Under the pieces are notes generated by a model that saw only the letters and a program-made list of their open reading frames with translations, had not been told where the DNA came from and did no database searches. Shown in pieces: positions 682-61,006 of a stretch of DNA of 64,000 bases (its first letter is position 1; every line of letters starts with the position of its first letter). The position numbers and the translations under genes were made by a program. This DNA comes from Brasenia schreberi (taxonomy: Eukaryota; Streptophyta; Magnoliopsida; Nymphaeales; Cabombaceae), in contig JAYKKT010000087.1 in the NCBI GenBank assembly GCA_036023115.1, positions 10,014,501 through 10,078,500 of the forward strand, given 5' to 3'.

Positions 682-3600
682 GTCAAGGAACCAACTAACT
701 TTCAAGATTCAGCTTTCTTGAATGCCGTTGTGAAGGTACATGCCATTGGCAACTTCAGACTTTGTAATTATTCATACAAAGAATCCAATTTCTTTTGATA
801 TCAATATTAAAAATTGTAGGATGTCAATGAATAGAATACCCTCAAGGTGAACATGTTAAGAATATGAATATTTTTTGTTTTTAGTGTTAGTTTTTGTAAT
901 TTTTAATATTTGGGTGTTACTGTAAATGCCAATAGTACTAAGGGCATTTTGTGTTTAACAGTCCATTATATAAGGGATGAACTTCTTGTATTAGTGTTAA
1001 GAGATTAAGATTAAGATTAAGAAAGAGAGAGAGGGAGAGGGGGCCTTCTTTAGAGGGCCTGCTCCCTCCTTCGATCTCCATATTTTCTCTTTACTTATTC
1101 TTCTTGTTTTGTGATATTCGATCTTCCGTTGTGCTACCCACATTTTCCAACATGGTATCAGAGTCATTCAATCAATGGGAGCAATGGGCAATGGCTGACG
1201 TGCGGCAAATAAAGAAAAAAAATGTTGAGATCGATTGCCTGCATGCTCCATCTTTGATTTCCCTTTATCGAGCCCTCCCTCTACAACTGCTATCATTGGC
1301 TTCTGGAGGTTGAAGACAAAGAAAATACGTGGGTGCAGTCATGGCTCGCGCGGTTGGTAAGAACGTGCTTTCAACACGTTTTTGGATTTCGATAAGATTT
1401 TGGATGCAATCTAAAATTGTTAAGACAATGATTGATGCACTCGAAGAATACCGTTGTTTCATTGGTGGGTTGTCATGGTCAACATTTGACAAATCTTTGA
1501 AGGAAGCATTCAAAAAGTTTGGACATCTTGTGGAAGCAAAGATCGTTGTTAACAGGTTCTCTGGTCGCTCCTCTGTTGGAATCTCAACAAGTACATCAAT
1601 GGACAGACTCACCATCCTGGTGTTGCTGGGAATGGTGCGACCATATTCTTCCTCTATGTAGTTGGCATTGCTTCAAAGTTTTTAGGTGGAAACCACTTGA
1701 GGTTCTAGAGTTATGACAGTTTGGTTGTTGTTGCGGCCTTTGATATTGTTGCATGGGCTATCACTGCTTTAGCCTTTGGGCTGGCCTGCAAGGAGATCCA
1801 CATAGGGACCAATAGGGGATGGAGACTGAGGGTGTTGGTGAATTGCTAGAAGTGTTAGATAGAGATCAAAGCTTTAGTGAGCGGCAGGGCTAGATAGCAT
1901 GTTCGAGAAGATATGTTGCTAATATGCGACCCACGAAGACACTCTTTGATGAAATGCCTAAGGGAGATGTCTTCTTAACATGTTAACTATTTGATGAAAT
2001 GTTTAAGAGAGATGTTTGCATGCACATTAAGTGTTCGCTGAAATGCTTAAGAAGAGATGATTAACCTGCACATCAAGTGTTTGATTAAATGCTCATGAGA
2101 GATATTTACTTGCGCATAAGTGTTTGATGAAATGTTCAAGAGGGCTGAAAACTCAGGAAAAAAATATTTGTAGAAGATAGGAAGTAGTATGTGATGATTG
2201 TGTCCATCATAATGCACATAGAAAGAAAGATAGAGTGTAGAAAATCATTTTTTGTCACCACATATGCTGAAAATCAAATCAGAGAAGAGACATATGCATT
2301 GTTTCTTATGGAATGTGACAGTATCACCAAGAAGCATGAAGATTAAGACCTTCAGTTGCTGAAGTTAACAACCAGGAGGACTGGAAAAAGGGGTTGCAGT
2401 CATCATGTGAAGGGATGTAGATTGACTAGTACCACATGTGTGTATTTTGTTATTTGAGTGGTAGAGAGAGGACACCCAACCAACACACCGGCAGCAGCCA
2501 CCATGTGAAGGGGTGCAAAAAAAGTCGGACTGTGTATGGTGGATATAGTACCTCCTACCATAAAAAAATAGTTTTCTCAAGGGAAGAAAAAAAACATTAA
2601 TTTTGAAGTGTTGTTGCCTAGTCACTTTATTAAGAAGAAAGAAGAAGAGGAGTGATCGACACCCATAGAAGGGTCGTACACTACCCAAGTATGACCTAAT
2701 TGTTTAAGTTGATTTAGAGAAATCTCATATAGATCATTGGTAGAAGTGTGGTGAAGAAAGAACCATTTTTTTTTTCAAGTTTGGAGTTCGAAGTATCTCA
2801 CTTTCAACTTGAGGGAGGTGTTGAAGAATATGAATATATGTTATTTTTAGTGTTAGTTTTTATAATTTCTAATATTTGAGTATTACTGTAATTACCCATA
2901 GTACTAAGGGCATTTTGTGTTTAACAATCCATTATATAGGGATTGAACTTCTTGTATTAGGGTTAAGAGATTAAGATTAAGAAAGAGAGAGAGGTCCTTT
3001 GGAGGGCCTGCCCCTTCCTTCGATCTCCACATTTTCTCTTCACATATTCTTCTTGTATTGTGATATTCGATCTTCCGTTGTGCTACCCGCATTTTCCAAC
3101 AGAACATATTGTGTCTAGGTTAGTAATTGGCATAACACTCTATAGTTATTCATGGGTGGCATGCCCTGTGACATCCTCTCAATAGCAATCATAAAATTAT
3201 GAGTCCGGTACTTAAGGATCTGAGGCTCATGAAGGAGCAAATGGATCAGGAGTAAAATGACATTTGCATCATGGGTTTATGCCTCTACCAAAATGTTGTT
3301 TCTTTTTTTGAATTCTTAAATGAATAAAAGGATATAACTTTGGAAAGTTAGAATTAGGTCAGATGTGATGATGTTAGGCTCTTTAATGCAAGTCACTTGA
3401 GCGAGTATAGATTTTGGAAAGCAGTAAGAAAACCAACAATAGAAGTTGTTAATAGAAGTTTTTTAGGGGATTCAAGGTGATGTGAGTGATGCAATATGTA
3501 AGATATAAGACATTTTGGACATGTATTAGCATAAACGTAGGAATCAGGACCCCTGGTCATGGGGATCAGGTCCGTCTACATCATTAGTTTGCTACAGCTC

Positions 3601-6600
3601 TTTTCTTTCTGATTTGCAACTGGAGAAAGCATTGGCAGGTTTTGTAGTTGAAAAGTAGGGTTTTAGTTGCTCCACACAAAGGTTCTGTAAGCATTTGTAA
3701 CAACAAGTGCTGGTTGTCTTGGCAGGTTAGTATCATGTCAGTATTGGATGCTAATTTTGATTTTCTCATTTTGAAGGATATATGCCCAAGATTGTCGCCA
3801 CCTTGAAATCATAACTTAACCATCTAAGTTTTCTTGAGTATCTTAACACATGATCTTTCCTATGTTCATACCACCTATCCGATTTGGGACAGTCTTACCT
3901 TTGTGTGGTGGTGTAATTCTTTCTCTTCTATGTCCTCATGCTCTAGCAAATGTTGGATTAGAAAAAAAATAGTTGATATCCATACTGATTATTGTAGCCA
4001 ACCTCACTTAGTGTGGGAAAAGGCTTGGCTGTTGTTGTTGTATGTCGAAAACCATACAGATTATTGCCTGAAATGCACATATGTATCGTGTAGTTACAAG
4101 CATATACAAATATAACCATCAGCATGTAGCACAGGAAAAATGCAGCATCTGTAACATATCAAAAGTTATCTTTTGGTCAACAAGGAGATTCTTAAATTGT
4201 GAAATTTCATGATACCTATTCTCTGAATAAAGAAAGATTGCAGGTATAGGGTCCTGGTCTATTAGTGTGAAGAGAGATTCTATTGTTACAAGCGAAAGAT
4301 GAGTTCATAAGTTGTAAATCACATTAATAATAAATTCAGTCATTTTCATTACTAGTTGACAGAAGAGCAGAATTTCCAATGATCTGCAGTAGGCAGCAAA
4401 TTATAATGCCTGTAGAAATCGATTCTACGTTGCAGGGATACGGGTATGGGTACATGATACATGAATTTCAAAAATTCTAAGGTACGGGTACACCACTATT
4501 AAAAATGTAAAAAACAGCAATATATATTATATATAATTAAAAGTATATGAAATTAAATATGCTAATTCATGATTGACAACATAATATAAGAAGATAATGT
4601 TTAGCAATGAATATAACTCCAATAACAAGTATGGCATATTAAAGCAATCGAACAAGAGGCAAAGATTGCAGTACATTCATATACATCTTAACCATAGATT
4701 TGCTAGAGGTGTGACCATACAGTGGTCATTCTTCTTCCAGCACAATGCGATGTATGGTCATATACTCTCTCTGGCCGTTCTTCTTCCAGCACAATGGCTG
4801 TTTTCAAATTTCAGTAAACCATAGATTTGCTGCAATTTAGGTGGCTGAGAGGGAGAGAGAGGCATTTAGTACCTGCTCCAGGTGTAATGCAAGCTAATCC
4901 AGTATCATTCCCTGAACGGTGCTGATAACAGAGGGTCTCCCAAAGAATGCAACGTCCAGTGATGTCCATATGAGAAGGCTGGTCGCAGCACAGACATTGG
5001 TGTTGACTGTTGAGGATGGCCATGGATGGGACGATGTTTGCAGCATATGGCACACGACCATTGAACCCGCACCAGGCCAGCCATAGGAGCCCAAGCCCCA
5101 CAAAGCATGAGTAACACATTGTTCAGAATTGGTGGGAACTTGTCACACTTCACCCTCAGTCCAACCTTCAAAGTATATAAATGTTCCAGCTCAGACGTAC
5201 CGGGCATACAGGTACACATGCCAGTACCCGGTGTGGGTACTCCATCCTAAGTGGCGTACCCGTGCTTCACTGAATAGATTGTTTTCACCAGTCAGATGAA
5301 GATGAGAGCCAATCTGCAAAAGTGAAAAGATTTAGATGTGGCTTTTCCTGATTTGCTGTTCCCATCTTAGTTACTGTAATTCAGAAAGCAAACGCAAAAA
5401 GGGGTTGCATGGATACGGGTACAGGGTATGCATATTTTTAAAAAATCAATGTACGGATATACCACTATTAAAAAATATAATAAAAAAAATTACACAAATA
5501 AATATAAACACAATACCAAATAAAAAGTATAGCATATGAAAACAGGAAGGTTTCATTCAATAACATTTTCAACTGTATACATATAACTTTCATATCAAAA
5601 TTCAAATTTTAAACATAATATCAAAGATTCAAAACACATTAAGCTTCAAAGTCCAATAGTCTTGATCTCATTATTTCCTTCTCTATCATAAAAAAAAAAT
5701 GCTTTTATAATATTTGGCTCGTCAAGAGACAATATTGCAACTTCAAGAATTCATGCTCCTTAAATAGATCACAATCATCTCCACCAACATCCCACATTTT
5801 TGTCTCACCTTCCTCGTAATCCTTACACTTTCTTTAAAGAAGACAAAGATTTGTACGAACCTTGAGAATTTAACAAACTTAAGTGACCTCTAGCCTTTCT
5901 TGAGGATCCGAAGTAATCCTTTAGGCATTTGTTTCTCCCCATACAAATCTCATTGTCCTTATGTGGGGGACTCGTTTTGGAGCTTCCTCAAGCCATTGTC
6001 TACAATAATACCTATTATACAAAATATAAATTGTGATTACTATAATACAAAAACCAAAGTACATCTAAGAAAAAGTAAAAGAAATTGAACTTGAAGTTAA
6101 TTAAATTTACCTAGGATTAAGTGAATGAGCCAAGCAATGAAGTGGTGTGCAACTTTTATTCCATCTAGAAATTAGGATGTTATACACCACTTCATAGAAG
6201 GATGAATGTTGATTCAACTCCTTTTCCTCATGTTGATAGATGCTAGTTTCACTTGCTCAATCATACAATCTCATTTCTCATAAACCAAATGAAGGTTTGG
6301 CTTATCGGTGTCACAAGAACGAAGCATTTCATAGATGGGCTTTGTAAAGCTTAGAATATAATCAACTTTATCCCACCAAAGGTCATTCAAAATTGTTTCT
6401 TTCACAAAAGGCGACCTTTTGAACATCATCTTCTCTATAGTGAGACCATGCTTCACTAATGACCATAGATTGGAGACCATGCTTAATAGTTCCAAACCTT
6501 TTAAGCATTATAATGAGGAGGCAAATCTAGTCTCAGCAATAGAAAGTAGCTTCAGATGCACAAATTGATTATACATGGCTAGCCTCATGGAATGATTCAT

Positions 6601-9600
6601 GATAAAATCTTAATAATGAAAAAGGCATCATCAGTACAATAGCGAGTAATCCAATGACACTTGGCATAAACACTCTCATTATTTGGATTATTTTTAGGTG
6701 CACAAATATTTTCAAAGCAAGGTTCAAGGTGTGCACCACACACGGTGACCAAAAGATATGAGGATGAATTGATTCAACAATTGCTCCAGTGACTTTCAAC
6801 AGGTGCATTATCAAGTAATGATTTGCACAACATTTTGTGGTCCAACCTCATCAATGGTGGACAAAATCAAATTAGCAATGTAATGCTTGTCCTTAAACTC
6901 ACCTGAGCCATCAATCGCCTTCAAGAACATAGGTCCGAATCCGATGCAGCCATGAAGTTAATCAATGGGGTTTTTTAGCTACATTAAAAGGTAAACCTTG
7001 AGAATAAAATAACCTTGTTATTTCACATGTCAAATGATCCCTTGCTTTGTTGTTAAATGCCTTTGATAGTTGTCCTTCACCACCTCTTTTCCTTTTACTT
7101 CCATCAAACCATCAAATAATTCACATGTAGGAGGATTCAAACTTTTGTTCGAGTAGGTAAGGGAACTTGCACTTATCTTACCACCTCATGTGCCTCTCTC
7201 AATTTGTCTCATCTCTGAAAGATATTGATCAGTTACACCAGAACAAATAACTATTTCATTTATTTTTTCCTTTAATAAATGACACTTCACTCTAAAATAA
7301 GACCCTTTGTAACTTAAACCATAATAATTACAATGTCAACTTGTATTTCCACCTCTTGTCTTATTATCTTGCAACAAAGACAATAAGCCCAAAGCGGGCA
7401 ATCTTTCTCAGGTCTTCAAAATGCAAATTTACTAGTGATAGAAACATACGAGTAGACGAAGTACTACTACTAGCAATCATATTAGACATTTAAAAATAAA
7501 CAATGTATGGCTATCGATAAACAAAAAAAAATAGAAGGATAAAAAATATGACTCATAACGTAAGACCCTAATTAACCAGACAAAATAAGCAGACCCATAT
7601 CTACTAGTGATAGAAACATACGAGTAGTGAAAAATTTTCAGAGAGGGTCTTCGCATTTTGATTATGGACGGATGCGGGGGGTAAGGAAGCTAGTCCTAGA
7701 TAATAAGATTTGTATTGGTTCTTGGAATATCGGAACATTATCGGGTAAGCTAATGGAGGTGGTAGATACTATGATTCGGAGAAAGATTCATATTCTATGT
7801 TTACAAGAGACAAAATGGGTTGGAGAAAAAGCAAAGGAGATAGAGGATACATGTTTTAAATTATGGTACTCAGGTAAAGAAAAGGCCCGAAACAGAGTTG
7901 GTATTATCATAAATAAAGATTTAAAGGAGAGTGTAGTAGACATATAACGATATGGTGACCGAATCATGACATTGAAATTAGTGTTAGGAAGAGGTTTTGA
8001 ATATAGTTTGTGCTTACGCACCCCAAGTAGGACTAGAAGATAGTATAAAGACAGTTTTTTGGGAAGAGTTGATAAGGTGTTTCAAAAGATTCCACAAAGG
8101 GAGATGATTTGTTTAGGAGGAGATTTAAATGGACATGTCGGTAAAGAGGCATTAGGATATCAAGGGATTCATGGAAACTTTGGTTATGGGGATATAAACG
8201 AGGAAGGTAGGGAGATTTTAAATTTTGCTATGTCATTTGATCTCTTTATAGTCAATACAATCTTCAAAAAATGAGATGAACATTTAATTACTTATAAGAG
8301 TGGCTTATACAAACACAAATTGATTACTTTATTTGTAGAAAAAAAGATAGAGCGTGTTGTAAAGATTGTAAGGTAATTCCAGGAGAAAGCTTAACCACCC
8401 AACATCGACTTTTAGTTATGGATTTACAAATAAAAAAATGAACAAAGAAGAAAGAGTGCATCGAGCTATTCAGACTAAATGGTGGAACCTCAAAAGCGAG
8501 AAAGAAGATATATTTAAACAAAAAGTCCTTCAAGGAGATGTTTGGAATTATGTTGGCACACCCTTTGATATATGGAACAATATGGCTATACATATTAGGA
8601 AAGTGGCGAAAGATGTGTTAGGGGTATCTAAGGGAGGTGTATCGGTACAAAAAGAAGCTTGGTGGTGGTGTGAAGTAGTACAAAATAAAATCAAGGCAAA
8701 GAGGGCATGTTACAAATTACATTATGCTAAGAAAACTAGTGAAACTTTAGAAGCTTATAAGAAAGCAAAGAAGGAAGCAAAAAAGGCCGTTAGTGAAGCA
8801 AAAGCTAAGATTTGGGAGGACTTATATAAAAAACTCAACTCAAAAGAGGGTGAAAGAGATATTTTTAGGATAGCTAGGGCTAGAGATAAGAAAACTAAAG
8901 ATCTTAATTATGTTAGATGCATAAAAGACGAGGATGAAAAAAAAATCTAGTGGCAAATGATGATATAAGAAATAGATGGAAAAACTATTTTTATAATCTT
9001 TTTAATGAAAATAAAGATGTTAGTATTAGTTTAGAAGATTTAGCCAAGTTAGAAAAGTATATAAACCACAATTTCTACCGACGTATTCAAAAGAATGAAG
9101 TCAAAGAGGCTCTTAAACATATGAAGGGTGGTAAATCGGTAGGACCAGATAATATTCCTATAGAAGTTTGGAAAATACTAGGAGAAATAGGAATCACTTG
9201 GCTCACAAGACTATTTAATGAAATATGGAAAAGCCAAAAGATGCCTGAGGAATGGAGAGCAAGTACACTTATACCCATATATAAGAACAAGGGAGACATT
9301 CAAAATTGTGCGAATTATCGAGGTATCAAGTTAATGAGTCATACTATGAAATTATGGGAAAGAATTATCGAACGTAGGTTAAGACAAGTATCAAGTACAA
9401 CAGAGAACCAATTTGGATTTATGCCAGGTAGATCTACTATTGAAGCGATTCACCTTTTGAGACATCTTATGGAACATTTTAGAGCAAAAAAGAAAGACCT
9501 TCACATGATATTTATTGATCTAGAAAAAGCTTACGATAGGGTACCGAGGGAGGTTCTTTGGAGAACTTTGGAAAAAAGAGGTATCCCATTGACATATATT

Positions 9601-12600
9601 AACCTTATAAGAGACATGTATGATGGTGCAAAAACATGTGTGAGGACTCATGAAGGAACGACAGACTTCTTTGAAGTTAATATTGGGTTACATCAAGGAT
9701 CAACTTTAAGTCCATACTTATTTATAATGGTGATGGATGAGTTAACAAAACATATTCAAGATGAAGTACCTTGGTGTATGTTATTTGCAGATGACATTGT
9801 ATTAGTGGAGAAGTCTATGGAAAAAGTTAATAGAAAATTGGAACTATGGAGAGAAACATTAGAAAACAAAGGCCTCCGACTTAGTAGAACAAAGACAGAA
9901 TATATGGAATGTAAGTTTGATCATTTGGCTACTTCAGAGGACATAGAAATTAAAATTGGCACACATTGCATTCCCCAAAAGGAAAGTTTTAAATACCTAG
10001 GGTTAATTTTTCAAAGTGATGGAAGAATTGATGGAGATATTACATATAGAATTAATGCTGGTTGGTTAAAATGGAGAGGAGCATCAGGTATTCTTTGTGA
10101 TAAGAAGGTACCATTAAAATTACAAGGTAAATATTATAGAGCAGCAATTAGGCCTGCCATGTTTTATGGTTATGAGTGTTGGGCAGTTAATCATCAACAT
10201 GTACAAAAGATGTCTGTGACAGAAATGAAGATGTTGAGATGGATGAGTGGTCATACAAGAAAAGACCGTATACATAATGAGGTTATTAGAAACAAATTAG
10301 GAGTGGCACCAATAGAGGATAAAATGAGAGAACATCGTTTAAGATGGTTTGGACATATAGAAAGAAGATCAAAAGAAGAACCTGTAAGAAGGTTAGAAAA
10401 ACTAAATTTGGAAAGTATTAAAAGAGGTAGAGGACGACCACAAAAGTGTTGGAAAGAAACAATAAAGAATGATCTAGCTTATTGGGAGTTAACTGCTAAC
10501 ATGGCACACGATAGGGATCTGTGGAAACAATGAATCCATGTAGCCGACCCCGTCTAGTATGGGAAAAGGCTTAGTTGTTGTTGTTGTTGTTTGTAGCCAA
10601 TGAACAACATACACCAAAGCAACGGGAAGACTAAAGAGGCAATCTAACAAACATTTGGTATGTTGTATGACCAAAACAATTAGTGAATGCACATACTGCA
10701 GCAAACACTTCAGGGTAGAAACAGTAGCCTTCTACATCAATCCAAGCAATCCATCTATGAGAAGAATGATGCAAATCAATTTCCATCCTCAAAAAATCAA
10801 CCAATGAACAACCATCCAACTCGAGATGAATTGCACCTCAACCATTTACAAATCCCTCTCAAATATTTACAAATAGTTTTGGGATAGTTAGTTCATATTG
10901 CATACACACAAGCACAACTAAACAAAACATTTGGTATGTCATATGACCAAAACAACTAATGAATGCACACACACAGACATGACTAAACAGAAGGAAGTAG
11001 AAGATATTGGCAGCAAAACCATGACCTGAGTATGGTGTTGAAGAATATGCATATTTAGTGTTCTTAGTGTTAGTTCTATAATTTCTGATGTTTTTAAGTA
11101 TTATTGTAATTGCTCGTAGTACTAAGGGCATTTTGGTAATTTTCTATACTAAGAGCATTTTGGTCATTTTACGTTTTATAGCTCCTTATATAAGGGCTGG
11201 TAGGTTGTATTAGGGTTAAGAGGTTGTGTGTAAGAAAGAGAGAGAGGGGGGCGACCTCTATTAGAGGTCCGCCCCTTCCTTTGATCTCTCATGTTTCCTC
11301 TTCAATGTAAGTGATATTTTTTGTTTAAATTTTTCGCTATTTAACTCTCCCTTCCTTTGATCTCTCATGTTTCTTCTTCAATGTAAGTGATATTTTTTGT
11401 TTAAATTTTTTGCTATGCAACTCCTGAATTATAACATAGTATCAGAGCTTTGCTGTTGAAATATTGTTCGGAGTGGAGAAGAAAAATCGAAATCGAAGGA
11501 AGTCATATTGGATCTAATCAATCGAACGAAGTCGTGCCTTTCCATTTTTCTCGTTGGAGGAAGGGCCTGCCACGGTCATGAGAGAAAGATAGAGGGAGAA
11601 AAGAAGAAGAAGAGGGAAGGAAGAAGGCGAAATTCTGGAGGGAAAGGGAAATTTTGCCTCCTCAAATCTGAAAGTTGTTCTCATTTCTGGTTTTCTTTTT
11701 CAAGCACATTTTCTTATCGGGGATTTATTCTGGTGTTTAAAAATACTGCTTCGATGGTGCACTATAACTAAGCAGCTCCAAAAGGTGTGGCAGAGGAAGA
11801 AGATGCAAGCACCACGGATGAGATCTTCTAAAAGGCCTCCATGGATTATTGTCTTAGTTACCATGGTGTGCATCTCTCTTATGGGTGCTTATATTTATCC
11901 TCCTCGCCGTGTTTCTCTACAAGAGAATATACTGATGACGAAATTGCAGCCCGTGTTGTCATCAATATATTTAAGATGCCTCATATTCAGCCCAAAAACC
12001 CAAAATTTGCCTTCATGTTTCTGACTCCAGGTATCTCATGGAGACCAACATAAGTTTTATTGACTGCTTTGAGTATCCTGGTCCACATGGATCAGGGAGA
12101 TACTCGAATCATATGGCTCCTAAAATTGAAAAATCCGATTGGAGGAAGGGTGCGCAGTGGTTTACAATGAAGAGACAACATGCATTGATAGACCTGGGTG
12201 ACGGTTTGTAATACCCAAAGTTCAGGCAATTTTGCAAGCCAGGTGTTGATGGTCGTAATTGTATTGCTGATGAACATTATCTGCCAACATTTTTCCATTT
12301 GCTGGATCCTATTGGAATATCAAATTGGTCAGGTTTGAAGGTTATGAATGGGGCAGATAATAGGTTGTTTCTGACTCGAAGCATTTATTGCTACGGTGGC
12401 TGCAATATTACGTTGGAGAGCAGTTATTGCATATTGAGCAGTTTGGTGGCTGCATTTATTGGGTTTGACTGCACATTTATTGCATATTCAAATTCCCAAG
12501 AAAGTGGAGCAGTTTGTTTGGCCTATAAAAAGACGGTACAGGAGCAGTTTGGTGGCTGCATTTATTAGATATGGATTTTATTAAGGTACTATTCGTATTC

Positions 12601-15600
12601 CCAAGAATGATGAGTAGAACACCAAGTTTCATAATGGCTTTGTGCAGCAGAATTTCGATGGTTATTATGAATATGATAAAGAGGTACTAAAGCAGACAAT
12701 GCTCCATCATGAAGCTGTATTTCGGAAGCTGATAATTCATTGGAACCATGGCATGCTGATATTTTTTGAGTTCCTTGATCTCCGAAAGAATCATGGGAAG
12801 GAAGAGAACAGAGCATGTGATCCTTCTTGAAAATAGAGAACCTTGTTAATGCTCACAAATGTGAATTGGAGATGTCCTTGGAGAAGACAAAGAAGGAAGC
12901 TGATAAACTGTCAACCAGAAATGAGGGTGTGAACGTTGATGGAATCCATAATGATATGAATAATGAACTTAAGAAGTAGCTCCCACTGAATGGATAAGAT
13001 GCACTAACTGATGAACAACTTAAAGAGAGAGCTTTAGCTCAAGCAAATGATGCAAAAACAGAAGGTAATAAATTATTCATTGCTGGATGCTATGATGATG
13101 CAGTGAGACAATATGCACAAGCTCTGGATATTGCACCAGATGGCTCTCTATCCAATGAAATTCGTTCAATCTGTTTTTCAAAATTGGAAAGGTATAAAGA
13201 TACTGTAAGTGAATCCATAAAAGCATTGGAGCTGAATCCAATTTACATCAAAGCATTGAGCAGAAGAGCTAATGCAAATGAAAAGCTTGAGTACTATGAA
13301 GATGCCATTGCAGACATGAAAAAGGTTTTGGAGAAAATACCCTCTTTCATCAGGTGTGCAAGCAGTGGACGACGCGTGGATTCATCAATTATAAGGAACC
13401 GTTCTTAATATTAAGTTTCCTCTTTATTGAACTTGAGTGATAAGAAGAGATATGGTGAGTCGTGACCATAGAGCCTCTTTCTGGCACCTAAGATGGTCAG
13501 GTTGGAAAATCTAATATTGAGGAACCAAACACAGAAGTCGTGCTAATGAGGAGGAAGGACATGACCAATCGTCAACACCTTATACGTCTAATGATTCCTA
13601 TGAATGATGCATATGAAGTGTTCAATGAAATGTTCAAGAGAGATGTTTACCTACACGCGAAGTGTTTGATGAAATGCTAAAGAAGAGATTATTAACATGA
13701 ACATTAGTGTTTGAGGAAATGTTTAAGAGAGCTAAAAAATTCAGGAAAAGAGTACAGAGGATTAGTATGTGTTGCAGAAGAATGATATTGAATGGATTGT
13801 CATATTGGTGAGTTAAGTAAGAAAGAGAGGTAGCCATGTGTAGGCACCGAAGTAGAGTTGTGGGTAGGTTGGATGGAATGTCTTCAATCTGTTGATTCTT
13901 GTGAAAATTATAGTCATGAGGACTGCTAAAATGTGTTTTACAGTCATGATGTTGTTTAAGATGATCAATCAAGATGGCTGAGTTGAAGATGTTGCATCCA
14001 AAGATGTTGCTTATATTGATCATCTAGGAAGATTGAGTTGATGTTGTTACAGCCAAGAAGGCTGAATTGATGTTGTTACAGTCAGGAAGGCTGAGTTGAT
14101 GTTGTTGCAGCCAGGAAGGTTAAGTTGATGTTGCAGCCAAAGATGCTGCTTAAGATGATCAGGAAGGCTGAGTTGAGGTTGTTGCAGCCAAAGAAGCTGT
14201 TGAAGATTAGATCAGTCATGAAGACAGATGAAGAATGTTGCAGACAGAAGAAGAATTTTGGCAAGTTTGGAGTTCAAAGTATCTCACTCCCAACTTGAGA
14301 GATGTGAAGAATATGCATATTTAGTGTTCTTAGTGTTAGTTCTATAATTTTTTATGTTTTTAGGTATTATTGTAATTGCTTGTAATACTAAGGGCATTTT
14401 GGTCATTTTATGTTTTACAGCTCCTTATATAAGGGTTAGTAGGTTGTATTAGGGTTAAGAGGTTGTGTGTAAGAAAGAGAGAAAGAGGGGGGGCCGACCT
14501 CCATTGAAGGTTCGCCCCTTCCTTTAATCTCTCATGTCGCCCCATCCTTTAATCTCTCATATGTCCTCTTCAATGTAAGTGATATTTCTTGTTTAAATCT
14601 TCCGCTATGCAACTCCTGAATTACAACATATGGGACTATGATGCATGATGATCTCGCCAGCAAAACCAACCGATGTTTACATAAGGATTTCCATCACCAT
14701 ATGTCTTCCTCTGTTGGTGATGAAAATCTCACACTCAAAGGGTCACAGAGAGGGCTGGCACTAGGTTTTCGTTTCATGTTTACGGGGGAATGGGGATAAC
14801 CTGATTCCCTCAAATTTGTTATTTGGATCGGGTCAACCTATATCTATATGGATCGACATGATCCAATACGTACCCGATATAGGTACTTGACGTACCCAAC
14901 GTACCCAACACAGCACTAGGTTCTCGTTTCATGTTTACGGGGGAATGGGGATAACCTGATTCCCTCAAATTTGTTATTTGGATCGGGTCAACCTATATCT
15001 ATATGGATTGACATGATCCAATATGTACCTGATGTAGGTACTTGACGTACCCAACACAGGTATGCATACCGGTACATGCCTATGTGTACTGGTATATATT
15101 TTATGGTGTTAGTAAGTACCTAATGTACCGATATGCATACCTCTACCTGGTACATACCGGATACGGGTATGATGCCCTTATAGGCGTACCCGTGCATCAT
15201 AGGGGGCATACAAGTAGTATATATATTTTACTTTTGAATTGTTTGCTTACTGAAGTTTCTCACTATAAATTTTGACATATTCATATATTTTTTGGAGGCT
15301 AAATCGCATCAGTACATGCATAGAAATATTTCTTATCTGTGTTTTTTTTCTTGAGATCTGCTGATTATCCCTGCATAAAGTTGGATTAGTAAATCTATAA
15401 TGCAGTTCACCATGATAAAATCTCTGTAGGTATATTGCACTCATACTGCTCCAGATTATTCTCTACCTTGGCAGAAACAAAGACAATACACAAGTACGGG
15501 CAGGTAATCTTTTCCATATGCTAAGTTGCTAACTCAACCACTGGGATCTGATGTTTAGAATTGGATAACAGTTTTCTTCATCATCTTTCTACTTTTAGAA

Positions 15601-18600
15601 TCTTATTATCCACATTTTCTGATGATTGGCATATATCCAGTGCTTTTATGATTGGGGATCGAAAGATATTGACCAATGCACATTGTGTTGACCATGATGC
15701 TCAGGTAATCTCTTTAATTCTCATGATGGTAACATAGTTTATAACATTTAACATGTATCTGTCGTGAATTGGCAATTTTTTAATATTTTTATTTAAAATT
15801 GTATACATGGTTATAGTCTATATTGGATTTCTTAAATTGCCATCTTGAATTGAATTTCAAGTCAATTATCTGATGTTCTTGAAAAATGATTTAACTCAAT
15901 GAGTCTGACTACATCCCAATGTCCCTATAACAATTGATATGAGTATGAATATTGAAAGCTGATAATTGAAAATTTTAAGTAGATTGTAATATCTATACAA
16001 CAACAACAACTAAGCCTTTTCCCATACTAGACGGGGTCGGCTACATGGATTCTTTGTTTCCACAGATCTCTATCGTGTGCCATGTTAGCAGTTAACTCCC
16101 AATAAGCTAGATCATTCTTTATTGTTTCTTTCCAACACTTTTGTGGTCGTCCTCATACCTCTTTTAATACTTTCCAAATTTAGGTTTTCTAAGGGCCTTT
16201 CTTCAGTGTTCTTCAAAATTATTTTGACTTTCTTCTTTCTATATGTCCAAACCATCTTAAACGATGTAATACAACATTCTTTCTACAACGAATATAAACC
16301 AAATTTATCCTCTATTGGTGCCACTGTTCCTAATTTGTTTCTAATAACCTCATTATGTATACGGTCAGTAATTTCTTAAATATGTATAGCCACTCGAATG
16401 CAACAGGCAAACCCATCTCAACATCTTCATTTCTGTCACAGACATCAATTATTTTTGTACATGTTGATGATTAACTGCCCAACACTCAGAACCATAAAAC
16501 ATTGTAATCAATTGGACTTAGCCCAACCTCTTGTATAACCTTATCAAATTCCTCGTAGGATCTCTGCAGTGTGCCTCTCCTCTGACATATCGGGGTCAAT
16601 GTCCTCCTCGCCTATCGGTCCATCCATCTGTTCATGATAGATTCAGCCTAACTGCTGCTCTATAATATTTACCTTTTAATTTTAATGGTATCTTCTTATC
16701 ACAAAGAATACCTGATTGTAATATCTATAATGAGAAATTTCTTTTGATGCAACCATTCTTTGTCTGAAGCAAAAGTTGATTGAGTTATTGATCTGCTATG
16801 TAATTGGTACTTATTTAATGGATCATGAAATATGATATGAACGTAGCATGTTATTTTGCTCCACTTGGGAATATAATGATTCAATTTTGTTCATCAATTG
16901 AACTCTATAATTAGCGGACTTGGTCACCATTATCAAAACTTGAAGCCTATGAAGAGAATGATAGTGGTTAAGCCTCCACAATTGGAGTCATATGTTCAAA
17001 TAAGCAACTCAAATGTCTGTGTAGATGAAGTGGGAAAGTATTCATTTTCCTGGAAATGCTTTTCTTGATGAATAATGATCTATTAATTATTAGGAAAAAT
17101 ACATGATGCTGGTTGATGAAATGTCAACCAAGGAAGCAGTTCTCTGAAGTGTACGTCATTCATCTCCATCCATATCTCTCACCATGCAAAGAGCAGTCAG
17201 GACCACTAAACAAGGCACCATCCATGTCTGAACTACTATATAACATGAAACAAGACAGTCTTTTACTGAGCATTTTTTTTATCTAACATACATTTTCTTT
17301 CAAGTAAACTACTTGCAACGCCTACTCAATGATCTATATGTGTACTTATTATATATGCACTTCATTCCACTAGTTTGAAGAAGGGCATGAGATTGTGGAT
17401 TATACACAAGATTGTTAAGTGACAGGAACTTATTAAGTGCTTTTCTTTAAGACCAATGGTTCTAGTTATCCATGGAAGATAACTACTCGTTCTGTATTAC
17501 TGACAGGCGTAGGTGCTCAACAAATTTTTGCTTTTATTTGGAGCTTGCAACAATTTCGCTTTTTCTTATGTAGTTACCAACTTACCATCCGCTACCTTTT
17601 GTTGTTAGGACTTGTCTGAAAAAGATTCTTTGCATTTTCTGCAGGTAAAAGTAAAACGCAGAGGAGATGACACTAAGTTTGTAGCAAAGGTATCCTTTTT
17701 TCAAAGGAGATGAATGAGTTTTGGTGTTCTATTTCTAAATCAAGATCACTGTTGAAATACTTGGCTGCAAGCTGGTTCTTTTCATTGACGTAGAATGGTG
17801 ACAAATGAACAGCTTTTTAGGTTTTAGTTCCTATTAGTGGTTTCTTGCACAGTCATAGTCTGTATTACCTTTATATAAAATAGTATGGACGGTCATGTCA
17901 CTTTGTGTGTATATGTCTCATGCTTGTCATATCTATATATTTAATAGTTCTAGATCAATTATGATCCCATTTTGGCAGCTTCTAGATAATTAGTGTAAAT
18001 CCATATTCCCCTTGATTTCATAGCAATGTTGATCCGCAAGGTTCCACAACATACTTTCTTGGCATCTTGTATTAAAAATGTTGGTCTCATTCTTGAATTT
18101 TGAGAATGTGTCATATGTGTGTTGTATAAGGAACGCTGGGTTCCTTCGGGAGTATATACTCCTTGACATAGATTGTCTGGTTGCCCTTGGTAGGCGATTA
18201 TGTCCAAACAAGGTGCCATCCTTGTCACATGGGAGGTGCCTTTTGTGTGATAAGAAGTAACACTAAAGTTGACAGGCAAATATACAGTAGCAGTTCGACC
18301 AACAACGTTATATGTTTTTTAAGTGTTGAGTAGTCAATCATCAACATGTGCAAAAGATGTTTGTGAAAGAAAATGTTGAGGCATGTGTGTGTTTGTCATT
18401 ATGTATACATTAATAATTACCTTTTTAGTAAATTACCAGCATAATGGTTGCTGGGATTGAGATTATTGCATGGCGGAACATGGTTGCAATTATATAGCAA
18501 TCCTATTAGTGTAGGATTGCTTTTGTTCGTGTCATTTTGCTCTCCAAGTGCTACCCAAGGAAACTTACACCATCAACTATTAAGTGGCATTCATAAGTTT

Positions 18601-21600: not shown

Positions 21601-24600
21601 CTCTACATATATACACGTGTATATATATTTTTATATTTATTTATTTATATATACACATAACAACAACAACAACTAAGCCTTTTCCCATACTAGATGGGGT
21701 CGGCTAATATTTATATATACACGTGTATATATATTTATATATACACAAATATGTATATGCTCTTTATTCTTCTTATATGCTTTGTTGAATGGATTTCTGT
21801 TGAATCATCAATGATCATTTTTAATCGTTCCTACACTCTTAATGCACACACTTTTGTTTTAGGTTTACAGATCAGATGACGCTGAAAATATTGGATATGT
21901 CATTCCCACGACTGTTGTGTCTCACTTCTTGGAGGACTATGAAAGAAATGGAAAATATACTGGTAAGAGATATGATTATGAGAATTCTTTGGTTTTGCTG
22001 GTTTCCATTTGTTGACATATACTACAACAACAACAACTAAGCCTTTTCTCATCCTAGATGGGATCGGCTACATGGATTCTTTGCTTCCTTTCCACATAGC
22101 TGTATCATGTTTCATGCTAGCAGTTAACTCAATATAAACTAGATCATTCTTTATAGTTTCTTTTCAACACTTTTGTGGTCGTCCTCTTCCTCTTTTAACA
22201 ATTTCACAATCTAGTTTTTTATATCATCTTACAAGAGCTATCCTTTGATCGTCTTTCTACATGTTCAAACCATCTTAATTAATTTCCCTCATTTTATCCG
22301 CTATTGGTGCTACTCCCAATTGGTTTCAAATAACCTTATTATGTATACGGTCTTTCCTTGTGTGACTACTCATCCATCTCAATATTTTCATTTCTGTTAG
22401 ACATCTTTTGCACATGTTGATGATAACTGCCCACTCATAACCATAAAACATAGCAGGTCTAATTGCTGCTCTATAATGTTTATCTTTTAACTTTAATGAT
22501 ATCTTTTTGTCACACAGAATACTGATGCCTCTCTCCATTTTAACCAACTGACATTAATTCTATGCATAACATCTCCATCAATTTTTCTATAGCTTTGAAA
22601 AATTGACCCTAGGTATTTAAAACAATTTTTACATCAATGCTTCCATTTCTTGACATGTAATTGAGAAAAATCTAACAGACCCTTTATGTACTCAAGTTAA
22701 CACAATATTTTGTGTAGAATGGAATTTTGAATTTTTATGATTGACGAATGGTTCTTCTCATGTCTTAAGTTCTGTCTTGCAAAATATCCTTGGTTCAACT
22801 TGTTTTTACATGAATGTGTTCTTCGCACTTATATTGGAAGCAATTTCCTTTTTTCTGCAAACTCTAGGAATTCCAGAAAGACTGAAAATTCGGGAATGTT
22901 GTGGAAAATATTTAAACACCATAAGAACACAAAACAATAATTACAGTTATCAGGGAGATGAGATGAACTGCTTAAAATCTACAGGATTTCCTTCTCTTGG
23001 AGTGCTGCTACAGAAGTTGGAGAATCCTGCTTTACGTAGATGCCTGAAAGTGAAGTCTAATGAGGTAAAATCTCTTTCTGTACATTTCAAGTCTAAATTG
23101 CATGCTCTTGTATATTCTGGAGTTATTCAGAAATTTTTAGTTGAATATGATAATTGAGAAATATCCTGATGAGTGATTTTCTTTCTTGATGCCTCGTCTG
23201 TGTTGAAGAAGCCCATGGTAGCATCCCTAGGTCTGCTTTAATGAGGTTCATTTGTTCTTTAACGTATGACTACAAAGTCACAGTTCAAAAGCAACAACTC
23301 ATGGGGCATCACCAATTGAATTCCCTCCTTTACAGTCAATCAACTGAAAATCAAACGAAGAAAAGGATAAGAAGGGATTCAAGAATGGAGATCTAAATAA
23401 TGGTGTGGGCAGATGTAGTGATGTGCTTCTCTGAGTCAGGGGAACCACATCATTTGCTCCAGCCAAACTTTGGAGTAATGCGTTAAAGTACATATGGTGT
23501 GCTTCTTTGAGTCATGCCTCAATAAGTAAGAGAAACCACACCATTTGCCACGTATGACTTCAAACCTTGAAAGATTAAGAAAAAATAGGGCTAACGCGAG
23601 AAATCAGAACTGCTTTCTTGTAGCTGTAAGAGAGAAAACTCTTGACCTAATTCCTGACTTGGTTGGGATGTATTGTCACAACTCACCAGTAGAAGCTGAG
23701 CTTCTAAATTTTAAAGTGCAGCTCTTAGTGATGTCCTGACATCATTGAGATGGGGCAGAAGTCTTGACAAATTTAAAGGTTCATAGTAAATCATACTTAT
23801 TTAGGATGACAGCCATCACTAGTATTTTGTTTTTTAACAGTGTTGTGGATCTTTGCTAATGATGTCGATGATGAATGTCCTTTTCATGGTGACATTTGCA
23901 GTACTTTCCATATCCATCTTATCTGCAATATCTTGGCTACTAAAAACTCTCTTTTTTTGGGTTGAGTGGCTACTAAGAACTCAGAACGTGATGCAGGGTG
24001 TGCTAGTGCGAAAAGTGGAACCCACATCTTCTGCTAGTAGTGTATTAAAGGAGGTAAACAACTGGTGTTCATGTAGATTTTTAAACATAAAAAGTTTGTT
24101 ACATAGGTATGTAGTTATCGAATATGATGTTAATCATAAGTGAAATGTCTACTAGCTGCTTGGGTCCTCTGGAAGTTGCATGTGTTACCCACTCTGTTCA
24201 CTCAACAATTTTTATACTCTGCAACTTCTGCAAAATGTTGCTTTCTTTGCCTGATGATGGATTTGGTCAGTATGAACTTAGAAGACCCAAACATAAACTT
24301 TGTTTTGAGTGATCATTATCTCTGAATTAAAGGAAAGTGTGTGTTATCACCTTGCCATGAATTGTGCTGTTTTTTAATGGTATGTGGTTGTGATTGGGTT
24401 GAAACTTGCTGACCTCAAACTCCAACATACCCTATACAGATTCTGGTTGAATGACTTGTTTCGGCTTTGCTGAAGTATACCGTTTCTTTTGAAAAAGAAT
24501 TTTCTTTCGAGTTCTACTTAAAGTTTTAGGAGAATTTTCTTTTCAAGATAAAGATAGAGGAGAAAAAGGAACACTCTTAGGGAGAAATCATTTGGTACTT

Positions 24601-38400: not shown

Positions 38401-41400
38401 ACATTAGATGGCCTTCTGTCATTCATTTGTATATAAGGGTTTCAAACTTTCAAGTAAAGGAATGAGAATCAGCGGAAATCATATATGCATGCAATAAATA
38501 AAGCTTAGCTTTTACAGTTACTGCTACATTTAATCCCAATTATGTGATAGATCTACCTATTTGAATGAAAATTTTGAGGATGGGAGAAAAGATATCCTTA
38601 AGCAGTGGAAAATTATATAGGCATGCAAAAATAACATCTTTCCCTTATACTATTTGCCATATTAAATTTGGAAAGACCTAATGACTTTTGTATAGTGATA
38701 TGGATTCCTTTTGCAATGTTTTGGTTAGCCTGGAGGTAAAGGAACAGAAGGGTCTTTGAGGAGGTAGAGAACCTCCGAGACTACTTCTGTTGAACTAGCT
38801 TCATCCTTTGTCCTTTTGGTATCGGGGTACTGGTATTGTGAATGTTATGGGGTTCATAGTGTTTGTAGATTCTTGTAATCTCTCATTGATTTTTTTGTTG
38901 TACAATCTGGGCAGTTTACAATGATACTGTTCTTATTTATCTAAAAAACACTTTCAGGGTTCTGGTCCAATGATGCACTATGTCAAAGGTAGACCTGTAC
39001 ATGCATGGGGAAAGAGCAAGTCCAAGGTGGTGCATGTCCACATAAGATGTGCTGAATGGTAATCTTTAGCTCTTCTTTTGTTCATAATAGCTAAATTTTA
39101 ATTATTTTGAGATTACATGCATGTTCCCTGAGCTATGTTAGTTACTTTAGTACATGAGAAGGAACATGAGTGTTCCTGCTTTTCTATCGTGATGGTACTG
39201 CTAAAATTGATGATCATCTTCATGCTGCATTTTTCTTCTTTCCATAGCAATCAGGGGTTTAGGGACAGGCGCACCAAATTTCTGGGTAGCAAGTCATGCC
39301 CTTCAACTTGAAGGTTCTTTTGAGTCTTGTGCACGTCTGTGCTCCACTTGGTCCATGAATATGGTTGGCACCAAACCATCCCATGGGTTTACTGAACATG
39401 TAGTACATCAAACTTGGATATGCCAATGCTTTGCCCGTATCTCCATCTTTTTCTTTGTGATATTCTCCATGGAGGTTCTTTGTGAATGTCATTGGCATAC
39501 CAAATGAAACCAAAATGATGCCTTTTCCCACAATAAGTGGGGTCTACTATTCCTTTCTTGAATTGAGCTTGATCTATTTTCATGTTAGTTTAACTGGAAA
39601 AATGGCACACCATGATTTGGATTAATGACATTAGAGTGTTTGATCAACGACAACAACTAAGCCCTTTCCCATACTAGATGGGGTCGGCTACATGGATTCT
39701 TTATTTTTAAAGAGCCCTATCATATGCCATTATGACAGTTAACTCAACATGAGCTAGGCCATTCTTTATTGTTTCTTTCCAAACACTTTTGGTTTCCCTC
39801 TTTCTCTTTGAACATTTTTACAATCTAGTTTTGGTCGTTTTTCTACATGTTCAAACCATCTTAAACGATCTCTTCTATTGGTACCACTCCCAATTTGTTT
39901 CTAATAACCTCATTATGTATGCAGTCTTTCTTTGTGTGACCACTCATCCATCTCAACATCTTTATTTCTACCATGGACATCTTTTATACATGTTGATGAT
40001 TAACTACCCAATACTTAGAACCATAAAATATAGCAGATCTGATTGGTGCTTTATAATATTTATCTTTTAATTTTAACGGTGTCTTCTTGTCACATAGAAT
40101 ACCTCATGTCCCTCTCCATTTTAACCAACTTGCATTAATTTTATGCATAGCATCTCGATCAAATTTTCCATCACTTTGAAAAACTGATCCTAGGTATTTA
40201 AAACTTTCCTTGTGAGGGATGCAATGTGTGTCAATCTTAATTTCTATATCATCTAAAGTAATCAAATGATCAAACTTGCATTCCATATATTTTATGTTTG
40301 TTCTACCAAGTCAGAAGCCTTTACTTTCTAATGTTTATCACCATAGTTCAAATTTCCTATTTACTTTTTTCTTAGACTCATCCACTAACACAATGTCATT
40401 TGCAAATAACATACACCAATGTACTTCATCTTGAATATGTTTTGTTAACTCATCCAGAACCAATATAAATATGGACTTAAAGCTGATCCTTGATGTATCT
40501 CAATATTAACTTCAAAGAAGTCTATCATTCCTTCACGAGTCCTTATAGATGTTTTTGCACCATCATGCATGTCTCTTATAAGATTTATATATGTCAATGA
40601 ATATCTCTCTTTTCCAAGGTTCTCCAAAGAAATGCCTTGACACCTATGATACACGGGTACATGTAAGTAGGTCAATATTTGTATCTGGTACATATTGGGT
40701 GCACGTACCGGTACATAAACTTTATAACAACTTCCAATATACGTACTCATGCTTATTTGGGTACGTGCACCAGGATTTGGGTATGTTAAGTACCCATATC
40801 TGGCAACGTGGATCAAGTCAACTCTTATGACCTGATCCAAATTTCCAAATAAGGATTTTAAACCCTTAATCAGTTCTGTGGCTGGATGTTGTGTTCTCTC
40901 TGTGGCACTCTACGCTCATCACCACCAACGACCAACAAAAGAACATTCACCGGTGGGGCATCCGACGGATGACCATTGATTAAACATGGTAGTGTGAACT
41001 AAACTTTACTTGATAATTTTGCTCTCACTCATGCTATTGCTCATGATTCTTCCACATTTCTTTTCCCTTTCTATTGCCTTCTTAAGAACATTTATGATGA
41101 ATCTGTTGATTATTTTGAACATCCTTGTTTCCGGTGTTTTGTTGGCTTTTCTTTCTATACTCTTTGTGACTAATTATGATTAGTGGTGTGACCTAGTTGC
41201 AATTTCAAATTAGTCCTATTGATGGTTGAATCCCCACTCCCCCGTGAACACGTTGCAATTTCCGGTGCATTGCTGGCTTTTGCCTTTAGGTTTCTTGTTC
41301 TTTTCTCGGTCTTCTTTTATTGGCACTTTTGATTCTTATTGCTTGATGATGGCCCCCTTAAAGGGGGCCCCTTTTATGTTGTGATTATTTTGTTTGGGTG

Positions 41401-47400: not shown

Positions 47401-50400
47401 GTTGGATTGTGAATATCAATTGTAAGCTGACCACAATTTTAAAATCAATACAAGATTAATACTTGTTGCTATGAATTGTCTACGAAGCGTGTGCTTGTTT
47501 TGAATGTTTCCTGGATGGCCTTGTTGATACCATTTTCTTTCCTTTTTCTTTTTTCTGTAAATTTAAAGGTAAGTTCTATATGTTCTTGCGTTATTAACAT
47601 AATAATGAGTATTTGATAGGATTGGATTAGGAGATGGTTACAAGTTCTAGTTCTTTTTGTTTTTACTTAGATCTTGGAATTTGTGAATTATCATAATTAC
47701 AGTAACTTCAGTGGCATTTAATGGCGTTTTATCTTAAAGAAATCTTAGTTTCATGATAAGAGTATTGTGTGAAAATTGTCTTGCCTAGACACTTCCATGG
47801 AAACCGAAGTGCAGTGTTTGACACTCTATTCTGTTATCTCTGTCTGAACGCACACATATACACATGCTATTGTGCATTCTTAGATATAGCACGATGACAC
47901 CATTTTAGTGAGTAGCCTCATCTCAAGAACCTAGACTATTTAACTAGTCCTAACACTTGTAATTCATTGGTTTTTACAATTGATCATGAAGAAGGAGCAC
48001 ATACCACATAATGGAAAGGGGGAAACTTCATCGCAGTTCACATTAGGGCATATTACACTTATGAACGGAAATGCCCAATAAGGATATTACAAAAATACAG
48101 CTTGATAGAACAATAGATTAGTATAGGTCCACATGGGTCTGTATAAGGACCCAAACCTAAATCCTTCCAATACTCCCCCAGTCCCCCTCAAGTTGGGAGG
48201 AAAACATTGATGACTTCCAACTTGCTCACAATATTGGAAACATGAACTCCATTCACTGTTTTAGTAAGAATATTTGCATATTGATAACATAGCCCATGAT
48301 GCTCCTATTTATGATGTTTACCTCTCACTCTACATCATGCTTTAGTTTTTATTATATTTTGGAGATTTACCTATTTTTCTTGAAAATATAAGGTGTCGAA
48401 TACTTGTTCAAATTTAATGAAGTAATTCTGTCGAAACTCATGAAAGAGATAAAGGACCAGCTACTAGGTTTTTGAGTGAATCTCTTGTTTACAGGGATCA
48501 AAGCATGCTTGGAAGCTTCATCTCCAGTCAGTGAAGAACCTTATGAAATTGATCGTGACATTCATGGGTGTTTTGAAGGTCCAAAAATTGGGAGGCATAG
48601 AGTGATGTCTAAGGTCTCTTTTTCTCTTTCCCTCACGCATAAACACATCAATCAACTGCGCCTTTGGCATGTACCATTATGCATCCAAATTGCCAGGAAG
48701 TAAAATGTTAAGAGTCATGGTAGTAAGAGTGCATCTTGCCCTTCTCCATCTATTCACATCTTGGAAGGTTTACTCCCAGATTTTTTTAGTCAAATTAGTT
48801 TGATTATTCTGGCACTAATGGAACTCTAAGGCACTTTGATGTATTTTATGAATCACTTATAAGAGACATGTATGATGGCGCAAAAACATGTGTGAGGACT
48901 CGTGAAGGAATGACGGACTTCTTTGAAGTTAATATTGGGTTACATCAAGGATCAACTTTAAGTCCATACTTATTTATAATGGTGATTGATGAGTTAACAA
49001 AACATATTCAAGATGAAGTACCTTGGTATATGTTATTTGCAGATGACATTGTATTAGTGGAGGAGTCTAAGAAAAAAGTTAATAGAAAATTGGAACTATG
49101 GAGAGAAACATTAGAAAGCAAAGGCCTCCGACTTAATAGAACAAAGACAGAATATATGGAATGTAAGTTTGATCATTTGGTTACCTCAGAGGACATAGAA
49201 ATTAAAATTGGCACACATTGCATCCCCCAAAAGGAAAGTTTTAAATACCTAGGGTCAATTTTTCAGAGTGATGGAAGAATTGATGGAGATGTTACGCATA
49301 GAATTAATGCTGGTTGGTTAAAATGGAGAGGAGCATCAGGTATTCTTTGTGATAAGACGATACCATTAAAGTTAAAAGGTAAATATTATAGAGCAGCAAT
49401 TAGGCCTGCCATGTTTTATGGTTCTGAGTGTTGGGCAGTTAATCATCAGCATGAACAAAAGATGCCCGTGACAGAAATGAAGATGTTGAGATGGATGAGT
49501 GGTTATACTAGAAAAGACGGTATACATAATGAGGTTATTAGAAACAAATTAGGAGTGACACCAATAAAGGATAAAATGAGAGAATATCGTTTCAGATGGT
49601 TTGGACATATAGAAAGAAGATCAAAAGAAGAACCTATAAGATGGTATGAAAAACTAAATTTGGAAAGTATTAAAAGAGGTAGAGGACGACCACAAAAGTG
49701 TTGGAAAGAAACAATAAAGAATGATCTAGCTTATTGTGAGTTAACTGCAAACATGGCACACGATAGAGATTTGTAGAAGCAAAGAACCCATGTAGCCAAC
49801 CCCGTCTAGTATGGGAAAAGGCTTAGTTGTTGTTTACTTGTAGCCAACCCCGTCTAGTCAGTCCTGTATTTACTTTATCTGTTTCTTTATTTTCTCCCCT
49901 GTACTTAAGTTAGGGTACTTGTTTTTGGTACCTCTTTCATAATTTCCATTATAAAGTCAAATTGTTTCCAATAACTCTTATTTAGTGGGCATTTGTATCT
50001 TGAGGGGATTCTCGTGTTAAGGTAATTATTATTTTTTGTTGCACAACCGCTTGTTTTACGGTTTTAGAACTTAGGTTGTTTCCATGCTTATTCCTATTGC
50101 TTTGCATTCACCAATTTGGACAGTTTAATCCACGACTTGTTTTGATGTTTTAGAACTTGGGTTGCTTCCATGCTTATTCCTATTACTTTGCATTGACCAA
50201 TTTAAACATAATTTCATCCACGATATATAGGTAGTAGGGCTCTGCCATTTTGCAGCTTCCGCCACTGTTACTTATCAAGTTTCACTTTCATGAAAGCATT
50301 TTTATTCAAGTGTACTTGCTGCCCGTATAGGTGCATCATACATGCACTCTCAGCTCCCACTTGGACATAAAGATGGGAGCTTGCTAGAACGCCATATTGA

Positions 50401-55803: not shown

Positions 55804-56095
55804 AATGGAACCTTGTTATGATTCAAGTGCTTCGAAAATATTTCTGCTATGAAAGAGTCTGCCATGATATATATGTATATAAATGAGCCTGACCTTGTGA
55901 GCTGGCACGGCTTGTATTGACATTTCTACTGTGTGCAGTATCCACCATGGTGTCAGGTTGTTGAAGGAGATGAATAAAAATATGCATCTATTTTTGTTAG
56001 GTTGTACTTGATTTTTTTTCTGAGAGACGCATGATGATGGGCTTTATGTGTGCGTTTTAGGGTTTGAGTAAAAGAGTGGTGTATTAAAAGAACAG

Positions 56096-60917: not shown

Positions 60918-61003
<86 letters not shown>
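60918..61003. repeat. Compound (CT)n(AT)n microsatellite
   Basis: About 19 CT units then about 23 AT units, inside intron 1 of the minus-strand NPF5 pseudogene. Confidence 0.96.

Positions 61004-61006
<3 letters not shown>

Follow-up and report, generated by a model that had tools for sequence, protein, structure and literature searches.

The stretch of 64,000 nucleotides of the Brasenia schreberi genome analyzed here (contig JAYKKT010000087.1, positions 10,014,501 to 10,078,500 of the forward strand; hereinafter, the window, in whose numbering all coordinates are given) contains, at 11036-14628, a complete, non-autonomous retrotransposon with long terminal repeats (LTRs) and Copia-like ends. 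This retrotransposon, hereinafter element 2, carries fragments of at least two host genes, among them one encoding a GT14/BC10-like protein and one encoding a TTC1 protein, the latter likely in a permuted form. Its structure is probably best explained by repeated template switching onto spliced host mRNAs. The element is delimited by the following features:

11031-11035 (no strand assigned), target site duplication TATGG, left copy, read from the sequence
11036-11436 (plus strand), 5' LTR, 401 bp, TGT...ACA, with a 76-bp tandem duplication at 11273-11423 and TTATATAAGGG at 11186
11437-11448 (plus strand), primer site TAGTATCAGAGC, directly 3' of the 5' LTR
14291-14302 (plus strand), polypurine-tract-like CAACTTGAGAGA, directly 5' of the 3' LTR
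14303-14628 (plus strand), 3' LTR, 326 bp, with TTATATAAGGG at 14425
14629-14633 (no strand assigned), target site duplication TATGG, right copy, read from the sequence

The original prediction, that this region is an LTR element, is confirmed by the exact ends, the TATGG duplication on both flanks, the primer site and the purine tract; together with the direct orientation of the LTRs and their TG...CA termini, these are the defining characters of LTR retrotransposons. Both LTRs start with TGT, end with ACA and contain TTATATAAGGG; the end motifs we take to be Copia-like. The primer site, one base off TGGTATCAGAGC, is presumably of the initiator-methionine tRNA type, and CAACTTGAGAGA is assumed to be the polypurine tract. 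The difference in length between the LTRs (401 vs 326 bp) stems from indels, including the 76-bp duplication in the 5' copy, and the pair shows 90.7% identity over 322 aligned sites, with a Kimura two-parameter distance (K2P) of 0.101. For given ends, chance would produce an exact duplication of 5 bp in about 1 of 1000 cases, and a second one, GAACA, flanks a related element in the same window (element 1, see below); the exact target duplications at both elements rule out a fortuitous LTR pair, and the exact TATGG duplication implies that element 2 was inserted by an integrase. No gag or pol was seen in element 2 in Pfam scans of chosen pieces.

The 5' part of the interior is occupied by a leader followed by three pieces of the GT14/BC10-like sequence:

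11449-11802 (plus strand), leader of element 2 and, perhaps, GT14 5' untranslated region (UTR), between the primer site and the GT14 start codon
11803-11910 (plus strand), start codon and first 36 residues of the GT14/BC10-like protein, 82% over 38 residues to P0001 1-38
11919-12032 (plus strand), second GT14/BC10-like piece, up to FLTPG, matching P0002 77-115 and P0008 76-113
12029-12331 (plus strand), third GT14/BC10-like piece, RYL to SNW, with one in-frame stop

The predicted GT14 cargo is real: the third piece matches the Pfam family Branch (E 9.2e-24) and is 80% identical over 105 residues to its best relative, the BC10-like protein of Victoria cruziana (P0001), with an Amborella protein as a close second (82% over 100 residues). 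The three pieces occupy three different frames, and the part of the leader that was tested in translation has no database match. Also as predicted, portions of the protein that normally are far apart are adjacent in element 2: residues 99-189 of P0001 (91 residues) are absent between FLTPG and RYL, and residue 98 is joined directly to residue 190. The join, CTGACTCCAGGTATCTC, appears compatible with a short shared AGG. Exon skipping was considered as the cause of this gap. Alignment of 119 BC10 models to P0028 shows 5 in which an exon corresponding to residues 128/129-160/161 is skipped; for rice BC10, at least six exons are given (PMC5030303). The missing stretch encompasses and exceeds the skipped exon, so skipping of that exon is no explanation.

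Further downstream, the interior contains two TTC1 pieces that appear in the reverse of the expected order:

12998-13345 (plus strand), TTC1 residues 86-208, with seven residues missing, spanning two inferred exon junctions (13025 and 13187) without an insert
13346-13451 (plus strand), putative TTC1 5' UTR, directly 5' of the TTC1 start codon
13452-13560 (plus strand), apparent TTC1 start and approximately the first 34 codons, 3' of codons 86-208

The first of these pieces, which substantiates the predicted TTC1 cargo, aligns with residues 86-208 of TTC1 from Nymphaea thermarum (P0121) at 71% over 123 alignment columns. The seven missing residues are HANRAIC, with a single ATCTGT retained at that spot; given that the parent reads IC...IC around them, they were likely deleted between two copies of this repeat. 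The TTC1 models from Cocos (P0199) and Ficus (P0213) contain inserts of 64 and 26 residues, respectively, that look like retained introns, and element 2 passes the matching sites, 13187 and 13025, without an insert. Such insert-free crossing supports a spliced template, as far as comparison with gene models goes, and the predicted lack of introns in the cargo is supported at these two inferred junctions.

At 13452, ATGGTG is followed by 7 extra bases and then by ACCATAGAGCC, which resembles the TTC1 start MVTIEP. Among the TTC1 homologues (99 found and 98 examined, with one distant TPR protein excluded), 88 of the 98 start with M(V/A)xI, 76 with M(V/A)xIE and 39 with M(V/A)xIEP. The first 85 residues of P0121 yield a score of 43 against this stretch, a value reached by none of 1000 mononucleotide shuffles of 13346-13620. 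Thus, TTC1 is likely, albeit not proven, to be permuted in element 2, with codons 86-208 preceding their own start.

Element 2 has a relative within the window, with which it shares a repetitive core:

854-3101 (plus strand), element 1, related LTR element with RRM and AWPM-19 cargo, with GAACA at 849-853 and 3102-3106
13607-13749 (plus strand), core of element 2, common to element 1 (80%), in units of about 45 nt

By Pfam, the cargo of element 1 includes fragments of an RRM protein (E 2.5e-5) and of AWPM-19 (E 2.4e-22), as against GT14 and TTC1 in element 2, so that the two neighbors indeed carry different loads. The LTR pair of element 1 has a K2P of 0.124, and its interior contains a T run of 10 as well as five runs of A, each 7-8 in length. 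The elements have in common the LTR starts, the core (80%) and the 47 bp directly 5' of the 3' LTR (87%), in agreement with the earlier claim of related LTRs and a related 3' core. That claim went further, assigning both elements to the same family, and here the relatedness holds whereas the closeness does not: the LTRs show 68-73% identity in the four cross pairs (274-287 sites) with values of up to 83% confined to approximately the first 100 bp. Under the 80% rule, LTRs of the same family are at least 80% identical over most of their length, and elements 1 and 2 fall below this level; they are relatives, not close copies, and "same family" is too strong a designation.

In element 1, the core (1945-2142) is a 45-nt tandem repeat in 4.5 copies. 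In both elements (1945-2142 and 13607-13749), the units read in places FDEM(P/F)K(G/R)DV, similar to a PLS-type PPR motif. A 20-residue peptide picked by eye from the core of element 1 had a single match in the PDB, PLS9-PPR (5iww), with an E of 0.002 that is the sum of several weak matches, the single-repeat E values being in the hundreds; longer pieces of the core had no Pfam PPR match. These observations are no more than suggestive of an ancient PPR capture as the origin of the shared core. A plus-strand self-BLAST of the window for repeats of at least 100 bp located 300-20000 bp apart, a scan that misses older and shorter pairs, returned 13 rows, namely, the two LTR pairs, seven rows between elements 1 and 2, and four between copies resembling long interspersed nuclear elements (LINEs), with no further LTR pair among them.

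Taken together, the anatomy and target site duplication, the single sense of the cargo, the insert-free TTC1 junctions and the apparent permutation of TTC1 point to template switching, as do the GT14 gap, which does not coincide with the exon skipped in known isoforms, and the interior, in which no run of A or T reaches 7. The GT14 sequence, both TTC1 pieces and a DUF863-like peptide that is unconfirmed (see below) all lie on the plus strand, that is, in the sense of the element; the cargo does not amount to an intact gene, its reading frames being broken and interrupted by stops. For LTR elements, PMC5408686 describes how reverse transcription can switch, possibly several times, to packaged mRNA. 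Under the mechanism we propose, an autonomous relative would have supplied the particle and the enzymes, and host mRNAs would have been packaged as well. Minus-strand synthesis, proceeding from the 3' LTR toward the primer site, would have moved from the 3' core to a TTC1 mRNA and copied its 5' part through to the terminus; reverse transcriptase would next have restarted at an internal position of a TTC1 mRNA, producing the permuted order, and then jumped to further mRNAs, including that of GT14, before returning to the element RNA near the primer site. The permutation is what would be expected if reverse transcriptase ran off one TTC1 mRNA at its 5' end and restarted inside another, and the gaps within GT14 and TTC1 would come from jumps within one template.

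Several observations weigh against this mechanism. Each TTC1 junction rests on a single public gene model (P0199 and P0213, respectively). The score of 43 for the TTC1 start is reached by 2 of 500 shuffles when the wider stretch 13346-14302 is used, and, in a plain BLAST search, this start comes up with an E of 0.43, the same search also returning unrelated sequences with E values of 0.36 and 0.43. Microhomology at the joins and a loss of the GT14 introns are predictions of the mechanism, the autonomous partner of element 2 is only postulated, and about one third of the interior has no assigned origin.

The competing explanations differ considerably in their merit. LINE-like copies are frequent within the window, and LINE template jumps are able to fuse transcripts (PMC2104539), so the cargo pieces might be separate LINE-derived processed pseudogenes that landed later in an LTR element; we consider this highly unlikely because none of the identified pieces includes a 3' end, all of them share one sense, TTC1 is apparently permuted, and the interior is free of A or T runs of 7 or longer, although tails as old as suggested by the K2P of 0.101 may have decayed. 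Only slightly less improbable is stepwise transduction, in which neighboring genes would be picked up by spliced read-through transcripts. A review (PMC13317346) does class the maize element Bs1, with its segments of three genes, as a transduction, but for element 2 this would require several genes to be located beside the element in turn, would leave the permuted TTC1 unexplained, and sits poorly with cargo that is internal to the primer site and purine tract. That a pair of LTR-like repeats merely happens to flank an ordinary cluster of pseudogenes would be in line with the broken cargo and the unassigned third of the interior, but is barely conceivable given the exact duplications at both elements and the presence of a primer site and a purine tract at their expected positions.

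A single ancestral capture, with elements 1 and 2 being deletion derivatives that retained different parts, is a much more serious contender, even if we find it rather doubtful; it is compatible with template switching as the mechanism of capture and denies only its recurrence. The ends and the 3' core shared by the two elements are in its favor, but, at E < 0.01, BLAST comparison of the interiors, which involved these two copies only, reveals just the core and the segment immediately 5' of the 3' LTR, and the four short additional interior matches (E 0.048-0.59) are at the level of chance. Template switching remains our preferred mechanism; the repeated acquisition of transcripts by one family, as proposed earlier, is no more than a hypothesis here, the comparison covering two copies whose LTRs differ at ~30% of the sites. 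A broader scenario can be put forward, more tentatively still than the single capture: a non-autonomous Copia-like lineage in an early-diverging angiosperm might have retained only its ends and its 3' core (the latter from an old PPR capture), with the slot between the primer site and the core being an open dock in which serial template switching lets each sublineage build new, permuted cDNA chimeras of several genes.

The rest of the interior of element 2 comprises the following features:

12332-12617 (plus strand), stretch with a 25-bp exact direct repeat (12436-12460 and 12542-12566), no Pfam match
12618-12743 (plus strand), DUF863-like peptide, an unconfirmed resemblance
12821-12979 (plus strand), open stretch of 52 codons, from the open reading frame listing
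14026-14133 (plus strand), 29-bp tandem repeat, 3.7 copies

The 25-bp repeat and the 29-bp tandem may have originated from copying slippage. The peptide at 12618-12743 has no Pfam match at E up to 1 or up to 10, so its identity as DUF863 is without database support; of the three or more captured genes of the original prediction, GT14 and TTC1 were borne out and the possible DUF863 was not. Searches of Pfam and the PDB returned no match for 12821-12979.

With respect to the genomic setting, the exons ending at 735 and starting at 15430 encode adjoining stretches of a Deg2 protease (4fln, E 1.3e-49, with the exons joined as the query), which places elements 1 and 2, in sense, within one 14,694-bp intron (736-15429, GT...AG). 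A LINE-like copy also is located inside this intron. LINE-like copies with similar 3' ends, as judged by eye, are present at 7640-10590 (with a TTG-rich tail near 10590), 15996-16715, 22023-22623, 39645-40204 and 48799-49773. Immediately 3' of element 2, at 14758-15055, there is a 155-bp tandem duplication (1.9 copies, 96%). At 56068-61163, two NPF/PTR-type transporter genes lie close together in opposite orientations, the minus-strand one being at most 67% identical to Victoria cruziana proteins among the matches listed. Proteins of Victoria, Nymphaea and Amborella are the best matches for genes of the window, which points to an early-diverging angiosperm, most likely of the Nymphaeales; the ceiling of 67% makes Victoria cruziana itself an improbable source, provided that its protein set is complete.

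It is well known that non-autonomous LTR elements of plants can capture genes, and element 2 is a further case. The suggestion that such a lineage is undescribed therefore does not hold as to kind: multi-gene capture by Bs1 (PMC13317346) and retroduplicated genes in non-autonomous elements (PMC5664825) are in print. Among the closest parallels is Bs1, an LTR element with segments of three host genes, none with a full-length reading frame (PMC13317346, PMC5408686); in contrast to Bs1, element 2 has an apparently permuted transcript and a repeat core common to a relative with another load, and where Bs1 has a chimeric protein, the frames in element 2 are broken. Surveys of captured genes in rice and sorghum are named in PMC13317346 and PMC7264820. 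In pepper, ~72% of the retroduplicated NLRs reside in non-autonomous LTR elements, and two or three genes within single elements are reported (PMC5664825); these cases from pepper, potato, tomato and rice resemble element 2 in combining spliced host genes with elements devoid of gag and pol, but the focus there is on NLR genes under selection, whereas element 2 carries short fragments of unrelated genes. Retroposition at microsimilarity (PMC5408686) shares with our model the packaged mRNA, the template switch and the partial copies, beyond which element 2 involves at least two genes and a likely permutation within the same gene. The complex elements of Triticeae (PMC1950507) are likewise plant LTR elements formed when template switching went awry, but fuse two elements, whereas element 2 takes host mRNAs. 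The tripartite chimeric retropseudogenes of Magnaporthe (PMC2104539) consist of several transcript copies fused directly by template jumps, but are made by LINE machinery and lack LTRs. Among the matches listed from the open-licence literature (titles and starts of abstracts), we found no precedent for one named LTR family with changing multi-gene loads.

So far, mRNA capture by LTR elements has been mostly inferred from end products. The permuted transcript and the gaps within templates of element 2 would trace the route that reverse transcriptase took across several mRNAs, in an early-diverging angiosperm, the cases described in the cited portions of the literature being from grasses, Solanaceae and Arabidopsis. 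If collected, the whole family would give the rate and the sites of template switching by a plant reverse transcriptase.

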